Source: Marinobacter orientalis
Lineage (GTDB): Bacteria > Pseudomonadota > Gammaproteobacteria > Pseudomonadales > Oleiphilaceae
NCBI RefSeq assembly: GCF_004792665.1
Contig: NZ_SRZX01000001.1
Span: forward strand, 1,240,001-1,304,000
DNA: 64,000 nt
Reading direction: 5' to 3'
Shown here piece by piece: positions 7,239 through 37,699 of this stretch. The stretch's first letter is position 1; every line of letters starts with the position of its first letter. The notes beneath the pieces were generated by a model, which worked only from the letters and a program-made list of their open reading frames with translations, ran no database searches and had not been told where the DNA came from. The position numbers were made by a program, and so were the translations under genes.

Positions 7239-8549
7239 TCAGTGCAGTTTCAGGCGCGGATGCATGGCTCGGGTAATCCGGTCCATCAGCCAGATAATGC
7301 TGGTACGCAGGAAACCGTGCAATGCCAGCTGGTGCATTCGGTACAGGGAAAGATAGAACAGTCTCGCCACCTTGCCTTCGATATACATGTTGCGACCGGA
7401 AAGGTTGCCCATCAGGTTACCGACGGTGGTGTAGCGGCTGAAGTTGATCAGCGAGCCATGGTCATTGTAGACGAAAGGCACGGCCTTCTCGCCCTGCAGG
7501 CGGTTGCGCAGGGTTTTGAACAACACAGCGGCCTGCTGGTGAGCTGCCTGTGCGCGCGGCGGTACCGGGCGATCTGAATCCGGCTGGGGACATTCCGCAC
7601 AGTCACCGAAAGCAAAAATATCCGCATCGGTGGTGGATTCGAGGGTTTGTCTGACCTTTAGCTGATTGCTGCGATTGGTTTCAAGCCCCTCCAGCTCGGC
7701 CAGGAACGCCGGGGCCTTGATGCCTGCCGCCCATATGGTCATCTCGGAGGGCAGCTCCGTACCGTCCTTCATCACCAGGGTGCCATCGCGGACCTCGCTG
7801 ACTGGCTGGCCAGTCATCACCCTGACGTTCTGGTGTTCCAGTTCACGGGTTGCCGCAGCTGAAAGCCGGGCCGGTAGCGCTGGCAGAATTCGCTCTGCTG
7901 CCTCAATAACCGTGATTGAGATATCCTCCGGCCGCAGGTGGTTCATGCCGTAAACCGGCAATTCCCGGGAAGCCAGGCGCAGCTCGGCAGCCAGCTCCAC
8001 ACCGGTAGCGCCGGCACCGATGATAGCGATGGGCAACTCATGGCCATTGCCGGAGTGGGCCTCATGATTCTTGCGCAAAAAGGCGTTGAGCATCAGGTTG
8101 TGAAAGCGTCTTGCCTGGTTCAGGCTGTCCAGAAACAGGCAATTATCCTGGGCTCCGGGCGTTCCGAAATCGTTGGCGGTACTTCCGACAGCGATCACCA
8201 GGGTGTCGTAGTCAATATGGCGCTCCGGAACTACTTCCTTTCCTTCGTTGTCGTGAAAGGGCGCAATCACCACTTCCTTTGACTGGCGATCAAGCCCGCT
8301 CATCCGGCCCAACTGGAACTCGTAGTGATGCTTACGGGCATGGGCCCGATAGTTGATTTCATTGGCGTTGGCATCCAGGGAGCCGGAAGCCACCTCATGA
8401 AGTAACGGCTTCCAGACATGGGTCAGGCCGGCATCCACCAGGGTAATACGGGCTTTGCGTTTTTTTCCCAGTTTGTTGCCAAGGCGGGTGACCAGCTCAA
8501 GACCACCGGCGCCGCCGCCAACGACAACGATGTGATGCAGGTTTTCCAT
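7239..8549 (-). CDS. NAD(P)/FAD-dependent oxidoreductase, type II NADH dehydrogenase-like
   Basis: Two-dinucleotide-binding-domain flavoprotein of 436 residues. It has an N-terminal FAD motif (VVGGGAGGLEL) and a second Rossmann motif (IIGAGATGVELAAEL), as in Ndh-2. The FAD C-terminal motif is present as ADIFAFGDCA, and the C-terminus has a basic amphipathic membrane-binding region. The ATG at 8549 matches the domain start; the longer reading to 8720 runs into the neighbouring regulator gene and is rejected. It would oxidise NADH at the membrane and pass electrons to quinone without pumping protons. Confidence 0.9.
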   Translation of the reverse strand: MENLHHIVVVGGGAGGLELVTRLGNKLGKKRKARITLVDAGLTHVWKPLLHEVASGSLDANANEINYRAHARKHHYEFQLGRMSGLDRQSKEVVIAPFHDNEGKEVVPERHIDYDTLVIAVGSTANDFGTPGAQDNCLFLDSLNQARRFHNLMLNAFLRKNHEAHSGNGHELPIAIIGAGATGVELAAELRLASRELPVYGMNHLRPEDISITVIEAAERILPALPARLSAAATRELEHQNVRVMTGQPVSEVRDGTLVMKDGTELPSEMTIWAAGIKAPAFLAELEGLETNRSNQLKVRQTLESTTDADIFAFGDCAECPQPDSDRPVPPRAQAAHQQAAVLFKTLRNRLQGEKAVPFVYNDHGSLINFSRYTTVGNLMGNLSGRNMYIEGKVARLFYLSLYRMHQLALHGFLRTSIIWLMDRITRAMHPRLKLH

Positions 8550-8578
8550 AACAGGCAGTTCCTGAAAGGCGGTCGGCT

Positions 8579-9184
8579 TCAGTGGCGGACCCGATACTGA
8601 TCCAGAATGCTCGCCATGTCTTCGGCGAGGTCGGTAACCTGTTCCGGCTCGATGTCTCTTTGTGCGAACGACCGCAGGCCGATAAGCTGGGCCTGAAGCA
8701 ACCTTGCCAGTCGTGCACAATCAGTGCCGGCAACCAGTTCGCCCCGCGTTTTTGCCTGCTCCAGGAGCTCCCTGAGGGACTGTTCTATCGCGTGCAGGAT
8801 TGTATTGGCCTGATCCGCCACCACCGTATTGGTATAGCTTGCTTCCAGCAGTGTTTTCACGATCATGCAGGCTCGCGACGGGGTCTCCGTGCCCGGCCTG
8901 GACTGGCGGGCGGTGCGGCGAAGATACTCCTGCAGTCCGTCCAGTATTGACTCATAGCCGGCAAGATGCTCCCGAAGTTCAGCTCCACCCCTTTCTGCGT
9001 AGGCGGCGAGGGCCTCCCTGAACAGGCCGTCTTTGCTGCCGAAGGTGGCGTAGATGCTTCCCGGGCGCATATCCAGCGCCAGCTCTATCTGCTTCATGGA
9101 GGCACCTGCGTAGCCCTTTTCCCAAAACAGGTTCATCGCTTTTTCAAGGGCGATCTGTCGATCATAGCGAGCGTTTCTGGCCAT
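8579..9184 (-). CDS. TetR/AcrR family transcriptional regulator
   Basis: TetR-type repressor of 201 residues. The N-terminal DNA-binding domain (about 8-55) has the family pattern: ALEKAMNLFWEKGYAGASMKQIE, then GSIYATFGSKDGLF. The remaining two-thirds is the helical ligand-binding domain. It is divergent from the carboxymuconolactone decarboxylase-like gene, and the 126-base gap carries two TTGA-N8-TCAA palindromes that are good operator candidates. The NADH dehydrogenase gene lies 29 bases downstream on the same strand and may be in the same transcript. Confidence 0.92.
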   Translation of the reverse strand: MARNARYDRQIALEKAMNLFWEKGYAGASMKQIELALDMRPGSIYATFGSKDGLFREALAAYAERGGAELREHLAGYESILDGLQEYLRRTARQSRPGTETPSRACMIVKTLLEASYTNTVVADQANTILHAIEQSLRELLEQAKTRGELVAGTDCARLARLLQAQLIGLRSFAQRDIEPEQVTDLAEDMASILDQYRVRH

Positions 9185-30069: not shown

Positions 30070-30103
30070 ACAGGGGTTTCTCGCCGGTCAGATTGATGTA
30101 TGT

Positions 30104-30128
30104 CACCCATAACGTCCGCTTATGGGTG
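30104..30128. promoter_or_regulatory. Hairpin or operator upstream of oleate hydratase
   Basis: Perfect inverted repeat CACCCATA ... TATGGGTG with a nine-base loop, between the DsrE stop and the oleate hydratase start. No T tract follows, so it is either a weak terminator or a regulator site. Confidence 0.4.
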
Positions 30129-30171
30129 CAGACTACGGGGATATTCGCCTCTCAGGAAAGGAGATCCTTCA

Positions 30172-32190
30172 ATGGCCCGTCCAGATATCCCCGCAACAGC
30201 ATCCTCAAAACTGCAAGTCCATATCGACGCTCTGCAGGCGCAGGAGGTCGAAGTCACCCCCGACGCTTCCTCCCGGCACCTGCACAACGGTCTCGATACG
30301 CCGCTGCCACCGGCGGACCTGCACGGTGCCTATGTCAATAATCGCCCGCTGCCCACCGAAGGTATCACAAACCGGCGCACCTGGATTGTGGGTAGTGGTA
30401 TCGCCGGCCTGTCCGCCGCTTTCTTTCTGATCCGCGACGGTCATATGCCGGCTGGCAATATAACCTTCCTGGAAGAGCAGGACATTGAGGGCGGTTCCCT
30501 TGATGGCGCCGGTAACGCCGAGGACGGTTACATCGTGCGCGGTGGCCGGGAAATGGAAATGACCTACCAGAATTTCTGGGATGTTTTCTCGGAAATACCA
30601 GCTCTGGAATTGCCGGAACCTTTTACCGTGCTGGATGAATACCGCATCGTAAATGATGCTGACAAGAACTGGTCAAAGGCACGGTTGCTGGAGAAGCAGG
30701 GCCAGATCCGGGACTTTTCGACCATGGAGCTGAGCAAACGGCAGCAGCTGGAAGTGGTCAGGCTTCTGCTTGCGCGCAAGGAGGACCTGGATGACATCAC
30801 CGTTGAGGAATGGTTCAGTGAAGGGTTTCTGAACAGCAACTTCTACACCTTCTGGCGGACGATGTTTGCCTTCCAGAACTGGCATTCCGTGCTTGAAATG
30901 AAACTCTACATGCACCGTTTCCTGCACCTGATGGACGGGCTCAACGACATGACCTCGCTCGTCTTTCCGAAATACAATCAATACGATGCTTTCGTGCGCC
31001 CACTGATGAACTGGCTGAAAAACCAGGGTGTTAACATCCAGTACGACACGATTGTCGAAAACCTGGAGATGGAAACCTCTGGTGACACCCGAACGGTCAC
31101 GGCTATCCAGTGCCATGGCAGCGAAGGAGACAAGACCTTTAACGTCGGCGAGCGTGACCTGGTGTTCATTACCACCGGCTCGATGACCGAAGACACTGCC
31201 TACGGCGATGACGACACGGCGCCGCAACTGAAAGAAAGCAGCGAGGCGGGCGCGGGTTCAGGCTGGCAGTTGTGGAAAAACCTGGCGCAGCAATCGGACG
31301 TGTTTGGCCGGCCGGAGAAGTTTTGCGGCAACATACCGGGTTCAACCTGGGAGTCCGTCACCCTGACCTGCAGGCCCTCCCCCTTGATGGACAAGCTCCG
31401 GGAGCTGTCGGTCAACGACCCCTGGTCCGGTTTCACGGCAACAGGGGGCATCATCACCTTTACCGATTCTGCCTGGCTGATGAGCTTCACCTGCAACCGT
31501 CAGCCACACTTCCCGGATCAGCCTGATGACGTGATTGTGCTGTGGACCTATGCCCTGTTGATGGAAAGGCCCGGCGATTACGTCAAAAAGCCGATGCCGG
31601 AATGTACCGGCAAGGAGGTGCTGGCCGAGATGTGCTATCACCTGGGCCTGGTTGATCAGCTCGACGAGGTGATGGCCGCCACTAAAACCCGGATTGCGCT
31701 GATGCCCTACATCACCGCCCAGTTCATGCCGCGCGCCAAAGGTGACCGGCCATGGGTCGTGCCGCAAGGCTGCAGCAACCTGGCCTGCATGGGCCAGTTT
31801 GTGGAGACCCACAACGATGTGGTGTTCACCCTGGAAAGCTCGGTGCGCACAGCCCGGGTTGGCGTCTACAGCCTGCTGGGTATCAATAAACAGGTGCCGG
31901 ACATCTATCCGGGCCAGTACGATATCCGCCGGCTGCTGCGGGCGACCCGTACCCTGAACAACGATGAGGCGTTTCTGGGCGAAGGCTTCCTGCGTAGGAT
32001 TCTCGGCGGCACCTATTTCGAACATATCCTGCCGCTGGGCCCGGATGAGAAGGCCGAGGAGCTGAGCCGGCCGGGATTGTTCGAGCAGCAGGTCCAGGCT
32101 GTTCGGGGCCTTGTCGAAGACAATCACACACTGGAAGAAGCCAGGGACTGGGTTCAGGGTGTATTGAGCAAGTTGCGAGGGCGCCGCTGA
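30172..32190 (+). CDS. ohyA: Oleate hydratase
   Basis: FAD-dependent oleate hydratase (myosin-cross-reactive antigen family) of 672 residues. It adds water to the cis-9 double bond of oleate, giving 10-hydroxystearate. The FAD motif is [19 protein letters not shown], and the conserved active-site region [15 protein letters not shown] is intact. The ATG at 30172 has an AAAGGAGA site; the longer frame to 30100 is rejected. The enzyme detoxifies or stores unsaturated fatty acids. It fits a lipid-rich lifestyle with the wax ester synthase at 59061, although the two are not linked. Confidence 0.93.
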
Positions 32191-32373: not shown

Positions 32374-32433
32374 CATGCGGGTGTGCAACAGAGAATAAAG
32401 ACAGGTTCAGGGCGCAAGGGAGAACAGTTCGAC

Positions 32434-34860
32434 ATGACTCGACACTACTGGATGGGCGGCAACCGCACCTACGAGCAGGACCGCTTTTTTGAAGCATCAC
32501 TTGATCAGGACCGCTGGCAGAAAGGCGACAGCCCGGACGACTGGAACGCCTGCTGGTATACGGGCATGCCCGACCCGGAGTTTTTCAGGCACGTCGGCCC
32601 CGGGCGCAAGATCAACCATATCCCGGGCAACAATGCCCTGACCGTCAAAAGCCGGCTTTACCAGAGCCTTCTGACGCTTCGCGACCGGGTGAGCCTCCAG
32701 GATACCGGACAGAACGGTCAGGTTGATCGTCTGCAGTTTTTCCCGCGAGTCTATTCCATGCCCGGGGATTACCATGCCTTCCAGCAGGAAGCACTGGATG
32801 AGCCTTCCAAACGCTGGATCCTGAAACCCAAGAACGCGGCACGTGGCAAGGGCATTCAACTGGTTAAGGACCCGGCTAATGTGCCCATGGATTCGTCGTG
32901 GATGGTGCAGGAGTACATAGAGAACCCCCATACCATGCACGGGCGCAAGTATGTGTTGCGGTTGTATGTTGCGGTCACATCGGTTGCACCTTTGCGGGTG
33001 TATCTCTACCGCCAGGGCTTTGCCAAGCTGGCATCGGCGCCTTATGACGAGGAAAACGCAGACAATCCCTATAGTTACCTCACCAATCCCGATGTTAACG
33101 CGCTGAATCTTGACGCCGATGTACCCGTGGAGTTTGTCGATCTGGATCGTTACCGTGCCTGGTTGAGGGAGCAGGGGCACGATGATGATGCCCTGTTTGC
33201 CAGGGTTGAGGATATGGTGGCCCTGACCTGCCTGTCGGCTGTCGAATCCATGCGCGAACGCTCAAGGGTGGTGGGAGCCGACACCCGTGGCTGTTATGAA
33301 TTGCTCGGGATCGACTGCCTGGTCGACAACAGGCTGAAACCCTGGGTACTGGAATGCAATCTCAGCCCTTCCCTGGAGGTCTGTGCCGGGCCTGAAAGCG
33401 GTGGTGATATTGAAGAGAGCGTCAAGGGTTCGCTGGTGGCGGACCTGGTAAGCCTGGTGGGACTGAATGGCAAGCCCGAAGCCGTTTCCGGCGCGTCTGC
33501 GGAGCAACAGTTGATCCTGGAAACAGAGAGCGAGCAGTCCCGGGCGGGCAATTTCAAGCGTCTGTTGCCGTCGGAAAACCCCGCGGCCTATCTGCCCTTT
33601 TATACGCTGCCACGGCTGGAGGACTGGGTCGTGGCGAAAGCCCTTTCCGGCAACGGCTTACCACAGCCAACCCTGCAAAGGCGCTGCGCCGAGGATATGA
33701 TCAGTGAGGATCGGGTGTATGTCTACGATACCCGGCTGGGGCATCTCAGTGTGCTGAACGAAACGGCGTCGCTGATCTGGCTTATGGCCACCGATGGTAT
33801 TGCGCCTGACGACATTGCCGATGCCCTGACCCAGTCAGCCCGGCAGAACGCTTCAGCAGAGCCCGATGCCTGGGCCATTCGGCGGGACGTCTGGAATTCT
33901 CTGGCGGACTGGGTCAACAATGGTTTTCTGGTTCAGGCGAACGCGGGTGGCGCACCCGCCACTGACCTTTCCCCTGCAGCGAATATCCCCCTGCCGCAGG
34001 TGTCCGAGCCCTATTCGTGTGTTCTTGAATGTGGCGGATTCCATGTGGAACTTTTCACCGACAGCCCGGCGGTAGTGAGCCGGATCGGCTCGTTACTTTT
34101 CCCGCTTGAATCGAAAAGCCGGCCCGGTTCCCGTTCAAGGCTCGAGGTTGTGCGTGATACCCCGGGATACACACTGATCCTTGATGGCAAGGTTGTGCAA
34201 TCGCGGCTCGCCCTTTCCCGGGTGGCGCCGGCGGTCATGGTCTGCCTGACCGGACACGCGGCAGACGAGGGCGACATCATCATTGACGCGGGCGTTGTTA
34301 CCCGGCCGGACGATCCGGCAAGTGCAGTGCTGGTTGCCAACAGTGACCCCGAGCTCGGTGATGCGCCAGCGTTGGCGCTGGCCAGCCATATCAGTGCGAG
34401 ATTTGGCCGTGCCCTGAGGATTTCCGCGAAGCCGGATGCGGCACTGTTTGCGCTTGGCCTGCCGGCACAGGTGCCTCCGGCCAGGGCTGATGATCCTGTG
34501 ATCTCGGGTCATTTTTCCGTGCATTCACCGAAGGATGGTCATGAAGTTGCGCTGCAACCGGCGTCGCTGGGGATGGCTGGCAAGGGATACCAGGTTACGA
34601 CGGTTCTGATACCCGCCCGGTCACCGTCGCAGTACGGAAGCGGTCTGCAGTCCGTGTCAGTGAACGAAACCTTGCGTTATCTCATCCCCGGTTGCTGTGG
34701 CCCTGACGGGCAACCTTTGGATGCGGCGGGGTTCTCGCGCTTTGCAGAATGGCTCGAGACAGCAGACCGATATCTGGTGGACGCAGATAACCTCGATGGC
34801 ATTGCGGCAGAGCTATCAGATGCGGATCGGCCAGAGATAGATCAAGCATTCGGGCAGTAG
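32434..34860 (+). CDS. TTLL-type ATP-grasp ligase fused to PqqD-like and HprK-like domains
   Basis: Protein of 808 residues. Residues about 1-330 match tubulin-tyrosine-ligase-like enzymes: WILKPKNAARGKGI (about 128-141) for ATP, QEYIENPHTMHGRKYVLRLY, VAVTSVAPLRVYLYRQG, YLTNPDVNA and PWVLECNLSPSLEV (about 304). Residues about 415-505 resemble a PqqD-type peptide-binding domain (RVYVYDTRLGHLSVLNETAS). Residues about 530-790 resemble an HPr-kinase-like domain without a P-loop, ending in VTTVLIPARS. The start at 32434 is favoured. TTLL enzymes ligate amino acids to protein Glu residues; the PqqD-like part could hold the leader of a substrate. Two EG-repeat exported proteins follow. Substrate and amino acid donor are unproven. 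Confidence 0.8.
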   Translation: MTRHYWMGGNRTYEQDRFFEASLDQDRWQKGDSPDDWNACWYTGMPDPEFFRHVGPGRKINHIPGNNALTVKSRLYQSLLTLRDRVSLQDTGQNGQVDRLQFFPRVYSMPGDYHAFQQEALDEPSKRWILKPKNAARGKGIQLVKDPANVPMDSSWMVQEYIENPHTMHGRKYVLRLYVAVTSVAPLRVYLYRQGFAKLASAPYDEENADNPYSYLTNPDVNALNLDADVPVEFVDLDRYRAWLREQGHDDDALFARVEDMVALTCLSAVESMRERSRVVGADTRGCYELLGIDCLVDNRLKPWVLECNLSPSLEVCAGPESGGDIEESVKGSLVADLVSLVGLNGKPEAVSGASAEQQLILETESEQSRAGNFKRLLPSENPAAYLPFYTLPRLEDWVVAKALSGNGLPQPTLQRRCAEDMISEDRVYVYDTRLGHLSVLNETASLIWLMATDGIAPDDIADALTQSARQNASAEPDAWAIRRDVWNSLADWVNNGFLVQANAGGAPATDLSPAANIPLPQVSEPYSCVLECGGFHVELFTDSPAVVSRIGSLLFPLESKSRPGSRSRLEVVRDTPGYTLILDGKVVQSRLALSRVAPAVMVCLTGHAADEGDIIIDAGVVTRPDDPASAVLVANSDPELGDAPALALASHISARFGRALRISAKPDAALFALGLPAQVPPARADDPVISGHFSVHSPKDGHEVALQPASLGMAGKGYQVTTVLIPARSPSQYGSGLQSVSVNETLRYLIPGCCGPDGQPLDAAGFSRFAEWLETADRYLVDADNLDGIAAELSDADRPEIDQAFGQ

Positions 34861-34869
34861 CCTGAAGAT

Positions 34870-34889
34870 CCGGGCACACATATGCCCGG
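34870..34889 (+). terminator. Hairpin between the TTLL gene and the EG-repeat peptide gene
   Basis: CCGGGCA and TGCCCGG pair around a six-base loop directly after the TTLL stop. It has no T tract, so it may act as a processing or attenuation site that sets the ratio of enzyme to peptide. Confidence 0.4.
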
Positions 34890-34924
34890 TGTTAACCAGA
34901 GAAACGGATAGGAGAGGAAATATC

Positions 34925-35233
34925 ATGTCCAGAGATATTCAGAAAAGACAGTTGTTGCGAAAGCTTGCCAGGGGTATCACCTACACCGGGCCGATGCTGG
35001 CTGTTGTGGTTGGCGCTTCGGCCTTGGGTACGGCTACCGCTGCAGAAGTGAATGCCCAGAGTGAGTACATGATGCTTGCAGCGGGTGAAGCGGAAGCAGA
35101 AGGCGAGGCCAAAGGTGAAGCTGAAGGTAAAGCCGAGGGTGAAGGAGAAGGAGAACGAGAAAGCGAAGGCGAAGGTGAAGGAGAAAGCGAAGCCGAAGGT
35201 GAAGGAGAGGGTGAAGGTGAAGCCGAGGGCTGA
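34925..35233 (+). CDS. Exported EG-repeat peptide, putative TTLL substrate
   Basis: Protein of 102 residues with a strong AGGAGAGG ribosome site. N-terminal KRQLLRKLARG (residues 7-17) is followed by a hydrophobic segment (about 20-40) with a signal peptidase-like ATA-A end. Residues 54-102 strictly alternate: every odd position from 55 to 101 is Glu (22) or Lys (63 and 69), and the others are Gly, Ala, Ser or one Arg. The codons vary, so this is selected protein sequence rather than a slipped DNA repeat. The leader motif occurs at the same residues in the cytochrome at 35996. The tail resembles the Glu/Gly-rich tails modified by TTLL enzymes. No known family is recognised. Confidence 0.75.
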   Translation: MSRDIQKRQLLRKLARGITYTGPMLAVVVGASALGTATAAEVNAQSEYMMLAAGEAEAEGEAKGEAEGKAEGEGEGERESEGEGEGESEAEGEGEGEGEAEG

Positions 35234-35270
35234 GCCGGAATCTGCGGCACCTGAAAAGGCAGTGGCCCGG

Positions 35271-35302
35271 CCAGGGGGAATCGGATTTATCGATAACCCT
35301 GG
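35271..35302 (+). terminator. Hairpin after the EG-repeat peptide gene
   Basis: CCAGGG and CCCTGG pair at the ends, with a further inner ATCG/CGAT pairing and, with a bulge, an outer GGCC/GGCC. It lies 38 bases after the stop of the EG-repeat peptide. A T tract is not obvious. Confidence 0.45.
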
Positions 35303-35374
35303 CGCCGGGGCCAGTCTGCGGCTCCTTTGCTGCTTTCAGTGAATGAATCAACCCAGACGATACGGGTGAAAAAA

Positions 35375-35938
35375 ATGCCAAATTCAAGTTCCGGGTCTGT
35401 TAGTTGTGAAGAACTTGTTGCCGAAAATGCCCACGCCATCAACCAGCTTGCAGAGCTGCTTGTTGAGTTGCCTGGAAAGCTTTATCGGCAAACGTTCGGG
35501 GCGAAAAAACAGCACGTAATCGGTAAACATGTGCGCCATATCATTGACCACTACATGGCTCTTCTGAAAGCCGTTAACGGACGATCCGCCGGGCCACTCG
35601 ATTACGAGAAAAGGGAGCGTGAGGAAAGGCTGGAGCTGGATAATTACGCCGCCTGCAACAGGCTTCTTGCCATCATCAACTTGCTGGGTCGTTTCGCTGA
35701 TGTGCCGCAGAATGCGCCACTGGAGATGGAACATCTCAGTGATAATCAGCGTCGCACTGTCGCCACCAGTATTGACCGGGAACTGGTGTTCCTGGCCAGT
35801 CACACCATTCACCACATGGCCATTATCGCGATGCTGGCGGAACAGGGCGGGGTCGAAATCCGTGACGGATTCGGAGTTCATCCTTCAACCCTGCGCCATC
35901 AAAAGCAGCTCAAAGCGCAGATGGCAAAGATCGCATGA
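35375..35938 (+). CDS. DinB-like metal-dependent protein
   Basis: Protein of 187 residues with a four-helix DinB/YfiT-like fold. The histidines that would bind a metal are in IGKHVRHIIDHYMALL and LASHTIHHMAIIAML, and the tail reads FGVHPSTLRHQ. DinB-like proteins include thiol transferases and hydrolases; which this one is cannot be told. The ATG at 35375 is preferred to 35327. It sits between the two EG-repeat genes, 141 bases after the peptide and 57 before the cytochrome, so it is probably part of the same cluster. Confidence 0.75.
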   Translation: MPNSSSGSVSCEELVAENAHAINQLAELLVELPGKLYRQTFGAKKQHVIGKHVRHIIDHYMALLKAVNGRSAGPLDYEKREREERLELDNYAACNRLLAIINLLGRFADVPQNAPLEMEHLSDNQRRTVATSIDRELVFLASHTIHHMAIIAMLAEQGGVEIRDGFGVHPSTLRHQKQLKAQMAKIA

Positions 35939-35995
35939 ACACCGGGTTCATGCCAAAAAAAATCCAATAATCAATGATGATCGGAGAGTGATCAA

Positions 35996-36580
35996 ATGAA
36001 TACTGACAGTCATCGTAAAGAACTCCTGCGTAAGCTTTCCCGAAATCTCATGGTGTCGGTACCCGTGATGACGGTAGTGGCAATGGCAGGTGTATCGGCA
36101 GTATCCGAACATGGCCTGGGACTGATCCCTTCAGCCGAAGCAGCCCAGGGTGAAGCCGAGGGCGAAGCGAAAGGAGAAGGAGAAGGCGAGGCCGAGGGAG
36201 AAGGCGAAGGCGCTTCCGAAGCCATGAAAGAGGCGGTTCGGCGCCCTGAAGGGTATGAGCCCTATGACGGCGATGCCGAATCCCTGGCCAGGAAAGGGGA
36301 AGCTCTGTTCAATGACACATCCCTTTCCTCCAATGGCTTATCCTGTGCGACCTGCCATACCAACGGCGCCGGTTACGCTGATACCTTCTCCAACGAGTAC
36401 CCGCATTTCGTCGCCATGGGCAAAAGCGATTTCGGGATGGACAAGGTCCATCTGGATGAGATGGTCCAGATCTGCATGGCTGCTCCCATGGCAGCAGAGC
36501 CGCTGGACTGGGATTCCGAGGAGCTGGCTGCTCTGACCGAGTACATGCGCATCGAGCAGGAGAAATTCCGGAAGCGTTGA
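35996..36580 (+). CDS. c-type cytochrome with an EG-repeat tract
   Basis: Exported protein of 194 residues. Leader motif RKELLRKLSRN (residues 7-17) is at the same position as in the EG-repeat peptide. A hydrophobic segment (about 18-36) follows, then an alternating tract at 52-72 (Glu at nine positions, Lys59) that shares EAEGEAKGE with the peptide. A single-heme cytochrome c domain follows, with CATCH at 117-121 and Met residues near 161-165 as candidate sixth ligands. A GGAGAG site precedes the ATG. It would carry electrons in the periplasm or at the membrane; the tract may be an attachment or modification site. Confidence 0.82.
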   Translation: MNTDSHRKELLRKLSRNLMVSVPVMTVVAMAGVSAVSEHGLGLIPSAEAAQGEAEGEAKGEGEGEAEGEGEGASEAMKEAVRRPEGYEPYDGDAESLARKGEALFNDTSLSSNGLSCATCHTNGAGYADTFSNEYPHFVAMGKSDFGMDKVHLDEMVQICMAAPMAAEPLDWDSEELAALTEYMRIEQEKFRKR

Positions 36581-36651: not shown

Positions 36652-36795
36652 ATGAAGATGCAAGTCCGGACGTTTATGGTGTTAGGTATGTTGCTTCTGG
36701 TGGCCGCTCGCCGGGGCCTGACCCAGGAGAAAAACGGGTTTGATCTGAGTAATGCGCTGATACCGGTGGATGAGATTCTCAGTGGCGGGACACTA
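36652..36795 (+). pseudogene. Truncated DUF3179 protein gene (5' remnant)
   Basis: A good GGAGGAAAA site and ATG open a signal-like N-terminus (MKMQVRTFMVLGMLLLVAA) followed by NGFDLSNALIPVDEILSGG. That is the usual N-terminus of DUF3179 proteins, which normally continue with a PPRDGIPAL-like stretch and some 250-350 more residues. Here similarity stops at SGG, and the frame runs on antisense into the anti-sigma gene. I read it as the 5' stump left by a deletion. The cut-off point is approximate. Confidence 0.65.
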
Positions 36796-36824
36796 GGCGC
36801 TGAATTCAAGTCGGGAGAGGGTAA

Positions 36825-37085
36825 TCAGTCAGAGTTGCCGTTTCCCGAGTTTCGCGCATTCAGCGACTCGGTGACACGTTCGTCGATCCGGCGAACAAAC
36901 TCTTCGTCCACCTGCTGGCTGGAATGGGCGTTTATCAGGTCCACGCTGGCGCGGAGGTTGCCAATAAAAGTCCGGCAGTGCCCGCACATCATCAGGTGCA
37001 TCTTCACAGACACCCTATCCATGGGGCCCAGCTCGCCATCAATGTAATCGCTGGCGATACGGGCCAGATCCCGGCACATTAACAT
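36825..37085 (-). CDS. Anti-sigma factor, zinc-finger (zf-HC2) type
   Basis: Small protein of 86 residues with a zinc-binding anti-sigma domain: CRDLARIASDYIDGEL near the start, then HLMMCGHCRTFIGNL, giving the H-x3-C-x2-C ligands. No membrane segment follows, so it is a soluble sensor like ChrR or RsrA rather than a membrane anchor. It overlaps the end of the ECF sigma gene by seven bases, a translational coupling typical of sigma/anti-sigma pairs. Redox or metal loss at the finger would free the sigma factor. Confidence 0.85.
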   Translation of the reverse strand: MLMCRDLARIASDYIDGELGPMDRVSVKMHLMMCGHCRTFIGNLRASVDLINAHSSQQVDEEFVRRIDERVTESLNARNSGNGNSD

Positions 37086-37699
37086 TCACCTGTCTCCTGA
37101 AACGTCTCGACCATCAGAAAGATTTTTTGCCGTCCCCTATGAAGGAGCACCCGCAGGTTAGAGGCACTGACATCCAGAATGTTACACACATCTTCGGATT
37201 TGTGCTGGTGTGCCTCATAAAGCATCAGCGCGGATCGTTGCGTTTCCGGCAATGCGGCCAGATGTTGGTCAAGGCAGTCGCTGAGGGCGTCGTTTTCCAT
37301 CAGTGCCTGGGCGGACTCGTTGATTTTCAGGCTTGGAGGGGTGGCCCAGCGGCCATTGGGCGCAAAGCGATCGGCAAGTTCCGGATCCAGCGTCTCGGAA
37401 AAATCTGCGCTGACTTCCCGCTTTGCTTTGCGGAGGTGATTCTTGGCCCGGTTGGCCACAATACGGTGAAGCCACGTTTTCAGGCCGGACCGGCCCTCGA
37501 ATTTCTGTATGGCATCAATCACCGTCACCCAGCAGTCCTGGACGGTTTCTTCCGCTGCCGAGTGGTCCAGGTAGAAGCGGGCAACTGCCAGCATGCCCGG
37601 TGTGTATAAACGAACAGCTTTGCGAAAGGCAGACTGATTGCCGGATTTCAGGCCTTGGATGAGGATATCCTCGTCAGACTGATGTGTCGCGGTGTCCAT
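37079..37699 (-). CDS. ECF RNA polymerase sigma factor
   Basis: ECF sigma factor of 206 residues. Region 2 (about 25-95) includes ARFYLDHSAAEETVQDCWVTV and the LKTWLHRIVANRAKNHLR stretch. Region 4 (about 135-195) includes LPETQRSALMLYEAHQHKSEDVCNILDVSASNLRVLLHRGRQ. It is followed by its zinc anti-sigma, overlapping. Likely targets are the two genes with a CTGTAACAYCC-N12-GTGTC motif: the TTLL gene (motif at 32349) and the TVP38-flavoprotein gene (37853). I see no equal motif upstream of the sigma gene itself. Confidence 0.92.
   Translation of the reverse strand: MDTATHQSDEDILIQGLKSGNQSAFRKAVRLYTPGMLAVARFYLDHSAAEETVQDCWVTVIDAIQKFEGRSGLKTWLHRIVANRAKNHLRKAKREVSADFSETLDPELADRFAPNGRWATPPSLKINESAQALMENDALSDCLDQHLAALPETQRSALMLYEAHQHKSEDVCNILDVSASNLRVLLHRGRQKIFLMVETFQETGEC

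Follow-up and report, generated by a model that had tools for sequence, protein, structure and literature searches.

Here, we describe a gene cluster of Marinobacter orientalis in which a tubulin tyrosine ligase-like (TTLL) enzyme stands beside two exported proteins with strictly alternating Glu-Gly (EG) tracts. The cluster lies in a stretch of 64,000 nucleotides (contig NZ_SRZX01000001.1, positions 1,240,001 to 1,304,000) that we call the window. The enzyme combines the TTLL domain with a PqqD-like domain, a putative RRE (recognition element of RiPPs, the ribosomally synthesized and post-translationally modified peptides), and with a third, HprK/PEPCK-like domain; the EG proteins are a small peptide and a c-type cytochrome (Table 1). 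We consider it fairly probable that the cluster encodes an RRE-guided TTLL amino-acid ligase together with its dedicated exported substrates, and that Glu branches would be placed on their EG tails. This reading is built on the fold and motifs of the enzyme, the exact co-occurrence of enzyme and EG proteins, the synteny, the common leader of the two EG proteins and the joint decay of the system. The original prediction had described an enzyme followed by two exported EG proteins, one of them a c-type cytochrome, and the open reading frames (ORFs) and domains are indeed present in this arrangement, the haem motif included; a DinB-like gene that sits between the two EG genes had been overlooked.

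The TTLL domain

The Pfam family TTL (PF03133) matches residues 75-332 of the GTG-start form of the enzyme with an E-value of 7.3e-56 and 190 bits, compared to a cut-off of 20.1. Other ATP-grasp matches in Pfam are weak and below their cut-offs, and we know of none among them that is a graspetide ligase model. A profile made from 18 relatives of the enzyme (A1) finds the TTLL6 polyglutamylase structures over positions 29-391 at 1.3e-42 and 149 bits and TTLL7 at 9.6e-42, while tubulin tyrosine ligase follows at 6.2e-13 or weaker (51 bits). A first AlphaFold2 model, based on the same number of sequences (18), had a mean pLDDT of 64 and was poor over most of the TTLL part. After addition of five distant sequences (23 in total) the second model reached a mean pLDDT of 82 and a pTM of 0.77. 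With VIA-align, residues 1-390 of this model superimpose on TTLL6 (6vzt) with a Z of 41.4 and a root-mean-square deviation of 2.6 Å over 366 aligned residues at 27% identity, versus a Z of 29.7 for tubulin tyrosine ligase, and the best 50 structural matches are all TTL-family chains, which leaves this list uninformative on the other two domains. A structure prediction had been proposed as a check on the fold, and the modelled fold is that of a TTLL. Both the profile and the fold place the glutamylases TTLL6, TTLL7 and TTLL11 nearest to the enzyme among solved structures.

The agreement extends to single residues. The TTLL motifs of the original prediction are borne out by the family match and by an alignment of the ATP/Mg and catalytic residues with those of TTLL6 and TTLL7. 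In alignment A6, K131, D294, E307 and N309 are invariant in all 23 enzymes and R176, T217 and N218 are kept in at least 90%; E307 and N309 fall within ECNLSPS. We take these K, R, TN, D and E-x-N positions to be the catalytic residues.

Three further positions were compared with TTLL6. In the profile alignment A136, R137 and L310 of the window enzyme correspond to C179, Q180 and H362 of TTLL6. Engineered TTLL6 (6vzq-6vzs) carries A/R/I at these positions and the window enzyme A/R/L. Across 22 fusion enzymes the Q180 position is Arg in 19 and Lys in three (L038, L040 and L073, which also have Ser in place of A136), and the H362 position is Leu throughout. A review describes Arg at Q180 of TTLL6 as forming a hydrogen bond with the acceptor glutamate and as promoting gamma-linked glutamylation (PubMed Central, PMC7970040), and another paper names Q180 as the main determinant of TTLL6 selectivity (PMC12366701). 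Judged by these residues, the active site of the enzyme resembles the engineered "initiase" form of TTLL6.

EG tails and the common leader

In the tail of the window peptide 22 of 22 Glu residues fall in one phase over 49 residues, which none of 20,000 shuffles reached. Since the synonymous codons are mixed (GAA 18, GAG 4, three codons for Gly and four for Ala), the alternation is kept at the protein level. Chance DNA slippage as the origin of the tract is ruled out by this codon mix and the Glu phase. Strict Glu alternation had been noted for both exported proteins, and it is found in both.

The C-terminal parts of peptide and cytochrome are unrelated, but the leader is common to both: basic-x-x-L-[LM]-x-x-L-[SA]-[RK], followed by a hydrophobic segment with a conserved Pro. 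The search pattern preset the basic residue, Leu, Ser/Ala and Arg/Lys, so that only the unfixed positions count as evidence, among them Pro +13 and Tyr +10. The Pro, whose position was free in the pattern, stands at +13 in 60 of 60 leaders (33 peptides and 27 cytochromes). Three residues before it, a Tyr at +10 is found in all 33 peptides and in one of the 27 cytochromes. The 33 peptides leave out a 443-residue protein of L047, a false positive of the tail pattern; the cytochrome of L047 was not caught by the tail pattern and was added from a separate reading of the locus. The common motif fits a signal-peptide-like leader that might double as the docking site for the RRE. A short putative precursor with a conserved leader adjoins a predicted modifying enzyme with an RRE-like domain, as in RiPP pathways; the RiPP label would fit only the peptide, the cytochrome being a full protein.

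The PqqD-like and HprK-like domains

The PqqD-like domain of the original prediction is backed by a sub-threshold family match and by structure. PF05402 matches the window enzyme at 8.4e-4 and 20.1 bits, under the Pfam cut-off of 23.4. In the first model the domain at about residues 412-502 has the winged-helix RRE fold and matches the TbiB1-leader complexes 5v1v and 5v1u with a TMt of 0.78 (E 2.7e-4 and 4.8e-4). Weak matches of profile A1 to TfuB1 and TbiB1 (E 0.014 and 0.044) point in the same direction.

An HprK-like domain had been named as well, and what speaks for it is a structural resemblance to PEPCK. PEPCK structures (2pc9/1xkv) match the third domain of the first model in Foldseek with E-values of 1.6e-4 to 4.8e-4 and a TMt of about 0.3, and PEPCK and HprK have a common fold. 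No HprK chain is among the best 50 structural matches of that model, Pfam gives no match to HprK families in the enzyme, and a Walker A motif (G-x4-GK) after residue 440 is present in none of 21 full-length enzymes, the window enzyme included. In the second model the pLDDT of this domain is mostly 80-93 per block of ten residues, with dips to about 58. A fold resemblance without P-loop makes kinase activity unlikely.

Co-occurrence and joint decay

A search for TTLL fusions together with EG proteins in other genomes had been suggested as a check, and the pairing is found within the genus and beyond it. We searched one set of 124 genomes from the genus for PF03133, for an EG-leader profile (A5) and for a profile of the haem domain (A4). 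The TTL domain is present in 27 genomes and the EG-leader profile, at E <= 1e-4, likewise in 27: EG-leader proteins occur in 27/27 TTL genomes versus 0/97 TTL-free ones (Fisher p 7e-28, not corrected for shared ancestry). The A5 match includes the EG peptide in 26 of these genomes, whereas in G084 it is confined to the EG cytochrome.

The haem domain has a wider distribution of 60 genomes, all 27 with TTL and 33 without. We fetched and read 17 of these 33. Thirteen encode the same cytochrome domain with another leader and a Cys-rich tail of the NPCAAK type. G107 has an EG tail at a locus cut by the contig end, in a genome that is 76% complete. The other three hold remnants, none with an intact TTLL. 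G004 retains only the start of the TTLL gene and has lost the EG part, and its DinB frame continues into the latter half of the cytochrome; G063 holds pieces of the TTLL gene and part of a cytochrome interrupted by a stop. In G026 a stop marks the head of the cytochrome tail and one haem Cys is lost, and TTLL and EG peptide were not found in the stretch read. The cytochrome is thus broken in all three, and the EG form seems to decay upon TTLL loss. The remaining 16 TTL-free genomes score 183-189 bits, compared to 183-193 for the 13 Cys-tail genomes, and by this score they would belong to the Cys-tail group.

The Cys-tail cytochromes (L134-L138, L140-L143 and L145-L148, e.g. L136 3704-4648, + strand) have tails of the form (NPCAAK/NPCATK)n. 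Neighbours were read at L135, L136 and L138: DUF6969 adjoins the cytochrome in L136 and L138; the same holds for DUF3179 in L135 and, as judged by eye, in L136. Possibly these cytochromes form a second tail system that is served by a separate modifier. It is speculation that the alternative of a Cys-rich or an EG tail on the same cytochrome in sister species reflects an exchangeable ligand- or metal-binding module.

Distribution beyond the genus

The first search with the enzyme gave 12 loci, nine of them in named Marinobacter. In total we examined 34 loci from 33 distinct genomes, as L032 and L048 are from the same genome. An EG peptide is present in 32 of the 33 genomes and a cytochrome lies nearby in 28 of the 34 loci; the exceptions are L036 and L049, which are contig ends, and L040, L066, L067 and L068. 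Outside the genus, the fusion is found with EG peptides of the same leader in Tamilnaduibacter (L041), in Chromohalobacter (L040; two peptides, one with GEASPEGEASPE repeats), in three genomes of family f201 from the class search (G348, G458 and G553; L066, L067 and L068) and in one of family f36 from the phylum search (G923; L073). The class search covered 369 genomes and gave five matches, among them the genome of the window itself and G386 with a standalone TTL; the phylum search covered 398 and gave three, of which two belong to this genus. The most distant full-length enzymes (L040, L066, L067 and L073) have 38-43% identity to that of the window. In L073 about 4 kb separate cytochrome and peptide, and the two are on opposite strands.

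The standalone TTL of G386 (L069 6759-7862, PF03133 6.5e-44), which has Asn and Arg at the Q180 and H362 positions, is followed at 8058-8804 by a protein that looks exported: it has a twin-Arg-like N-terminus and an LPAHAQTS motif but lacks an EG tract, and it is perhaps another type of bacterial TTLL substrate. The TTL match in L075 (G855; E 8.5e-13) is an intermediate case with a different architecture. A TTL search listed 48 of 398 genomes at E <= 0.001, and a separate one gave two weak matches outside the genus (L028 and L029). The weak matches were not counted as TTLLs; the four that were read (L028, L029, L076 and L086) resemble, by eye, other ATP-grasp proteins of D-Ala ligase, RimK-like and synthase-like kinds.

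Proposed mechanism and alternatives

We propose that in the cytoplasm the PqqD/RRE-like domain would bind the leader common to EG peptide and EG cytochrome. The TTLL domain would then use ATP to activate the side-chain carboxylate of a Glu in the EG tract and ligate an amino acid to it, most likely Glu, which would yield gamma-linked (mono)glutamate branches. The Sec-like signal segment would subsequently export the modified protein; since the reaction needs ATP, modification should precede export. In the periplasm the branched polyanionic tail might serve as a ligand or docking module around the c-type cytochrome and the small peptide. The acceptor should be a Glu side chain, because the EG tract ends the peptide but lies within the chain of the cytochrome, and the C-termini of the EG peptides differ among loci. 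For the same reasons, C-terminal ligation of the TTL type is disfavoured as the general reaction. Amino-acid addition to the EG tails would best account for these data.

The identity of the donor is the point on which the closest alternative differs. The same machinery might ligate Gly, in the manner of polyglycylation, or some other amino acid: the EG tails are rich in Glu and Gly, and eukaryotic TTLL3, TTLL8 and TTLL10 are glycylases of tubulin tails, the first two of which act on internal Glu (PMC12340829). However, the nearest solved relatives by profile and fold are glutamylases. The structure 5vlq, which we take to be the glycylase TTLL3, matches profile A1 at 54 bits versus the 149 of TTLL6. 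We regard a donor other than Glu as unlikely, albeit worth keeping in mind.

Less probable still is that the EG tails are mere acidic linkers of halotolerant bacteria and that the TTLL merely has an operon in common with them and targets something else, such as the DinB protein or a small molecule. Acidic low-complexity tails are common in halophiles, and tblastn over 29 related loci finds the DinB-like gene about as well conserved as the EG proteins (27 versus 27 and 26). Several observations speak against it: EG-leader proteins occur only in the 27 TTL genomes of 124; the haem domain is found in 60, and among the 17 TTL-free ones read an EG tail was intact only at one contig edge while 13 tails were Cys-rich; and a leader-binding-type domain in the enzyme is matched by a leader motif common to both EG proteins.

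The original prediction had further offered crosslinks, and intramolecular Glu-Lys isopeptide bonds would recall the lactam and lactone links that graspetide ATP-grasp enzymes form (PMC8939145) and would suit the regularly spaced Lys of many EG tails (e.g. EAKGEAEGEAKGEAEG), but this is very improbable. The enzyme matches TTL, and its matches to other ATP-grasp families are weak and below cut-off. Lys is missing from the tails of 7 of the 33 distinct EG peptides and of 3 of the 26 EG cytochromes, and from every EG tail found in four genomes (L038, L040, L067 and L068). Lys, scored as the candidate nucleophile of a graspetide core, is not conserved in the EG tails, and Lys crosslinking fails as a general mechanism. 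This favours the ligation of an amino acid to internal Glu.

Several points weigh against an RRE-guided glutamate ligase with dedicated EG substrates. Profile A5 was built from peptides that adjoin TTLLs, and the genomes of one genus are non-independent samples. The PqqD score is below the Pfam cut-off in all four proteins scanned (L066 16.1, L040 21.2 and L073 23.2 bits besides the window enzyme). The proposal gives no role to the HprK-like domain without P-loop, and Gly, Tyr or some other amino acid might be the donor. The substrates are not universal either: the stretches of L040, L066, L067 and L068 hold no EG cytochrome, and G084/L038 has no separate EG peptide. In L039, L045 and L068 the enzyme frame is interrupted after the TTLL part, either truly or through sequencing error, and the EG proteins are still there. 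The DinB-like gene was not found in L067 and L068. Finally, no EG partner accompanies the standalone TTL of L069 within the 9 kb read, so that a TTL alone does not imply EG substrates.

Relation to known systems

The closest known analogue appears to be TTLL5, which in mammalian photoreceptors glutamylates the Glu-Gly repeats of RPGR-ORF15 and has the active-site signature of an initiase (PMC13052805). As in the system presented here, a TTLL-family enzyme with an initiase-type signature meets a non-tubulin Glu-Gly repeat substrate; unlike here, the system is eukaryotic and the substrate is recruited by another domain pair, via the CID-BD interface (PMC13052805), in place of the RRE proposed here. 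TTLL6, TTLL7 and TTLL11 have the fold over about 366 residues, the ATP-grasp motifs, LTN, LKPW and E-x-N-x-SPS in common with the enzyme. They differ from it in sequence (27% identity to TTLL6), and the candidate substrate here is a bacterial exported protein. To our knowledge, TTLL6, TTLL7 and TTLL11 have no PqqD or HprK-like domains, and RPGR-ORF15 has no signal-like leader.

The other parts have precedents too. The lasso-peptide B1/RRE proteins TbiB1 and TfuB1 have a PqqD-like fold that docks leaders. In LPP RiPPs, RRE and HprK-like parts occur in one pathway; there the RRE stands on its own and the precursor is phosphorylated by the HprK-like protein (PMC13381572), whereas here both are fused to the TTLL and the HprK-like domain lacks a P-loop. 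Graspetides likewise use an ATP-grasp enzyme on a genetically encoded precursor (PMC8939145), but for crosslinking instead of the ligation proposed here, and Lys acceptors are not conserved in the EG tails. Bacterial TTL-domain proteins have been known since at least 2010, when 19 were counted, in a passage that gives no peptide partner for them (PMC2824747); the TTL of L069 likewise stands without an adjoining EG protein. In the open-licence PMC literature searched, judged by titles and the opening of abstracts, we found no TTLL-RRE fusion and no bacterial TTLL with peptide substrates, and passages from graspetide and CDC123-clade papers do not describe a system of this type. Each part is thus of a known kind, while their combination is new.

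Because candidate substrates are linked to the enzyme, which has a likely recruitment domain and co-occurs strongly with them, a bacterial TTLL function becomes directly testable. If the proposal holds, TTLL chemistry on Glu-Gly repeats, the type of substrate concerned in RPGR-linked retinal disease, would become accessible in a small bacterial system. RRE-guided pathways would gain a new modifying enzyme, and the system would bear on the origins of TTLLs. More tentatively, and with rather less confidence than in the ligase itself, we suggest that the RRE-fused TTLL might write gamma-linked Glu branches on disordered Glu-Gly tails of secreted peptides and a c-type cytochrome. It would then be a bacterial counterpart of the tubulin/RPGR glutamylation code and a new class of RRE-guided modification, possibly with a use of TTLLs that predates tubulin.

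Features of the locus and neighbouring genes

Table 1. Features of the TTLL/EG cluster (positions in the window)
Feature	Position	Strand	Basis
TTLL / PqqD-like (RRE) / HprK-PEPCK-like fusion enzyme, 808 residues	32434..34860	+	Pfam, profile, fold
TTLL catalytic domain, residues 1-390	32434..33603	+	VIA-align to 6vzt, profile match to TTLL6
PqqD-like / putative RRE domain, about residues 412-502	33667..33939	+	sub-threshold PF05402, match to TbiB1-leader complex
PEPCK/HprK-like domain without Walker A, about residues 527-795	34012..34818	+	Foldseek matches to PEPCK, pLDDT
EG-repeat exported peptide, 102 residues, leader/signal-like segment, then EG tail	34925..35233 (ATG start)	+	ORF
Glu-alternating tail of the peptide, 49 residues, 22 Glu, 2 Lys	35084..35230	+	
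DinB-like protein, conserved His-rich motifs KHVRH..DH and HTIHH	35375..35938	+	PF05163 5.1e-7
SoxA/TsdA-like c-type cytochrome, EG tail between leader and haem domain	35996..36580	+	SoxA-TsdA_cyt-c E 4.8e-9
Haem motif CATCH of the cytochrome	36344-36358	+	
Glu-alternating tail of the cytochrome, internal, not C-terminal	36149..36211	+	

The enzyme ORF spans 32383..34860 on the + strand, with an alternative GTG start at 32383; from the ATG at 32434 the protein begins with MTRHYW, as do most of its relatives. The DinB-like protein has near-invariant residues across 29 sequences, and its motif is found in 29 of 33 related loci (not in L036 and L049, both contig ends, nor in L067 and L068). The cluster had no match in the plasmid collection searched, and among viral contigs 16 pattern hits gave no confirmed case; these collections therefore give no indication that the cluster is carried on mobile elements.

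An oleate hydratase gene (30100-32190) lies directly 5' of the cluster and is matched in only 5 of 29 related loci. Just 3' of the cluster stands a pair of extracytoplasmic function (ECF) sigma factor and zf-HC2 anti-sigma factor (36825-37699, - strand); 23 of 29 related loci have a match to the sigma gene, though its distance differs among them and one match has only 28% identity. Positions 36652-36830 hold the cut-down start of a DUF3179-like gene (NGFDLSNALIPVDEILSGG). Since L030 has a full DUF3179-like gene (PF11376 1.5e-78) and several kb of other genes at the equivalent place, the window seems to carry a deletion there. Outside the genus, genes for DoxX (L040 and L067), rhodanese (L068 and L073) and a sub-threshold DUF302 (L040 and L073) recur near the cluster, and these neighbours, together with the SoxA/TsdA-like cytochrome, hint at a sulfur or redox role.

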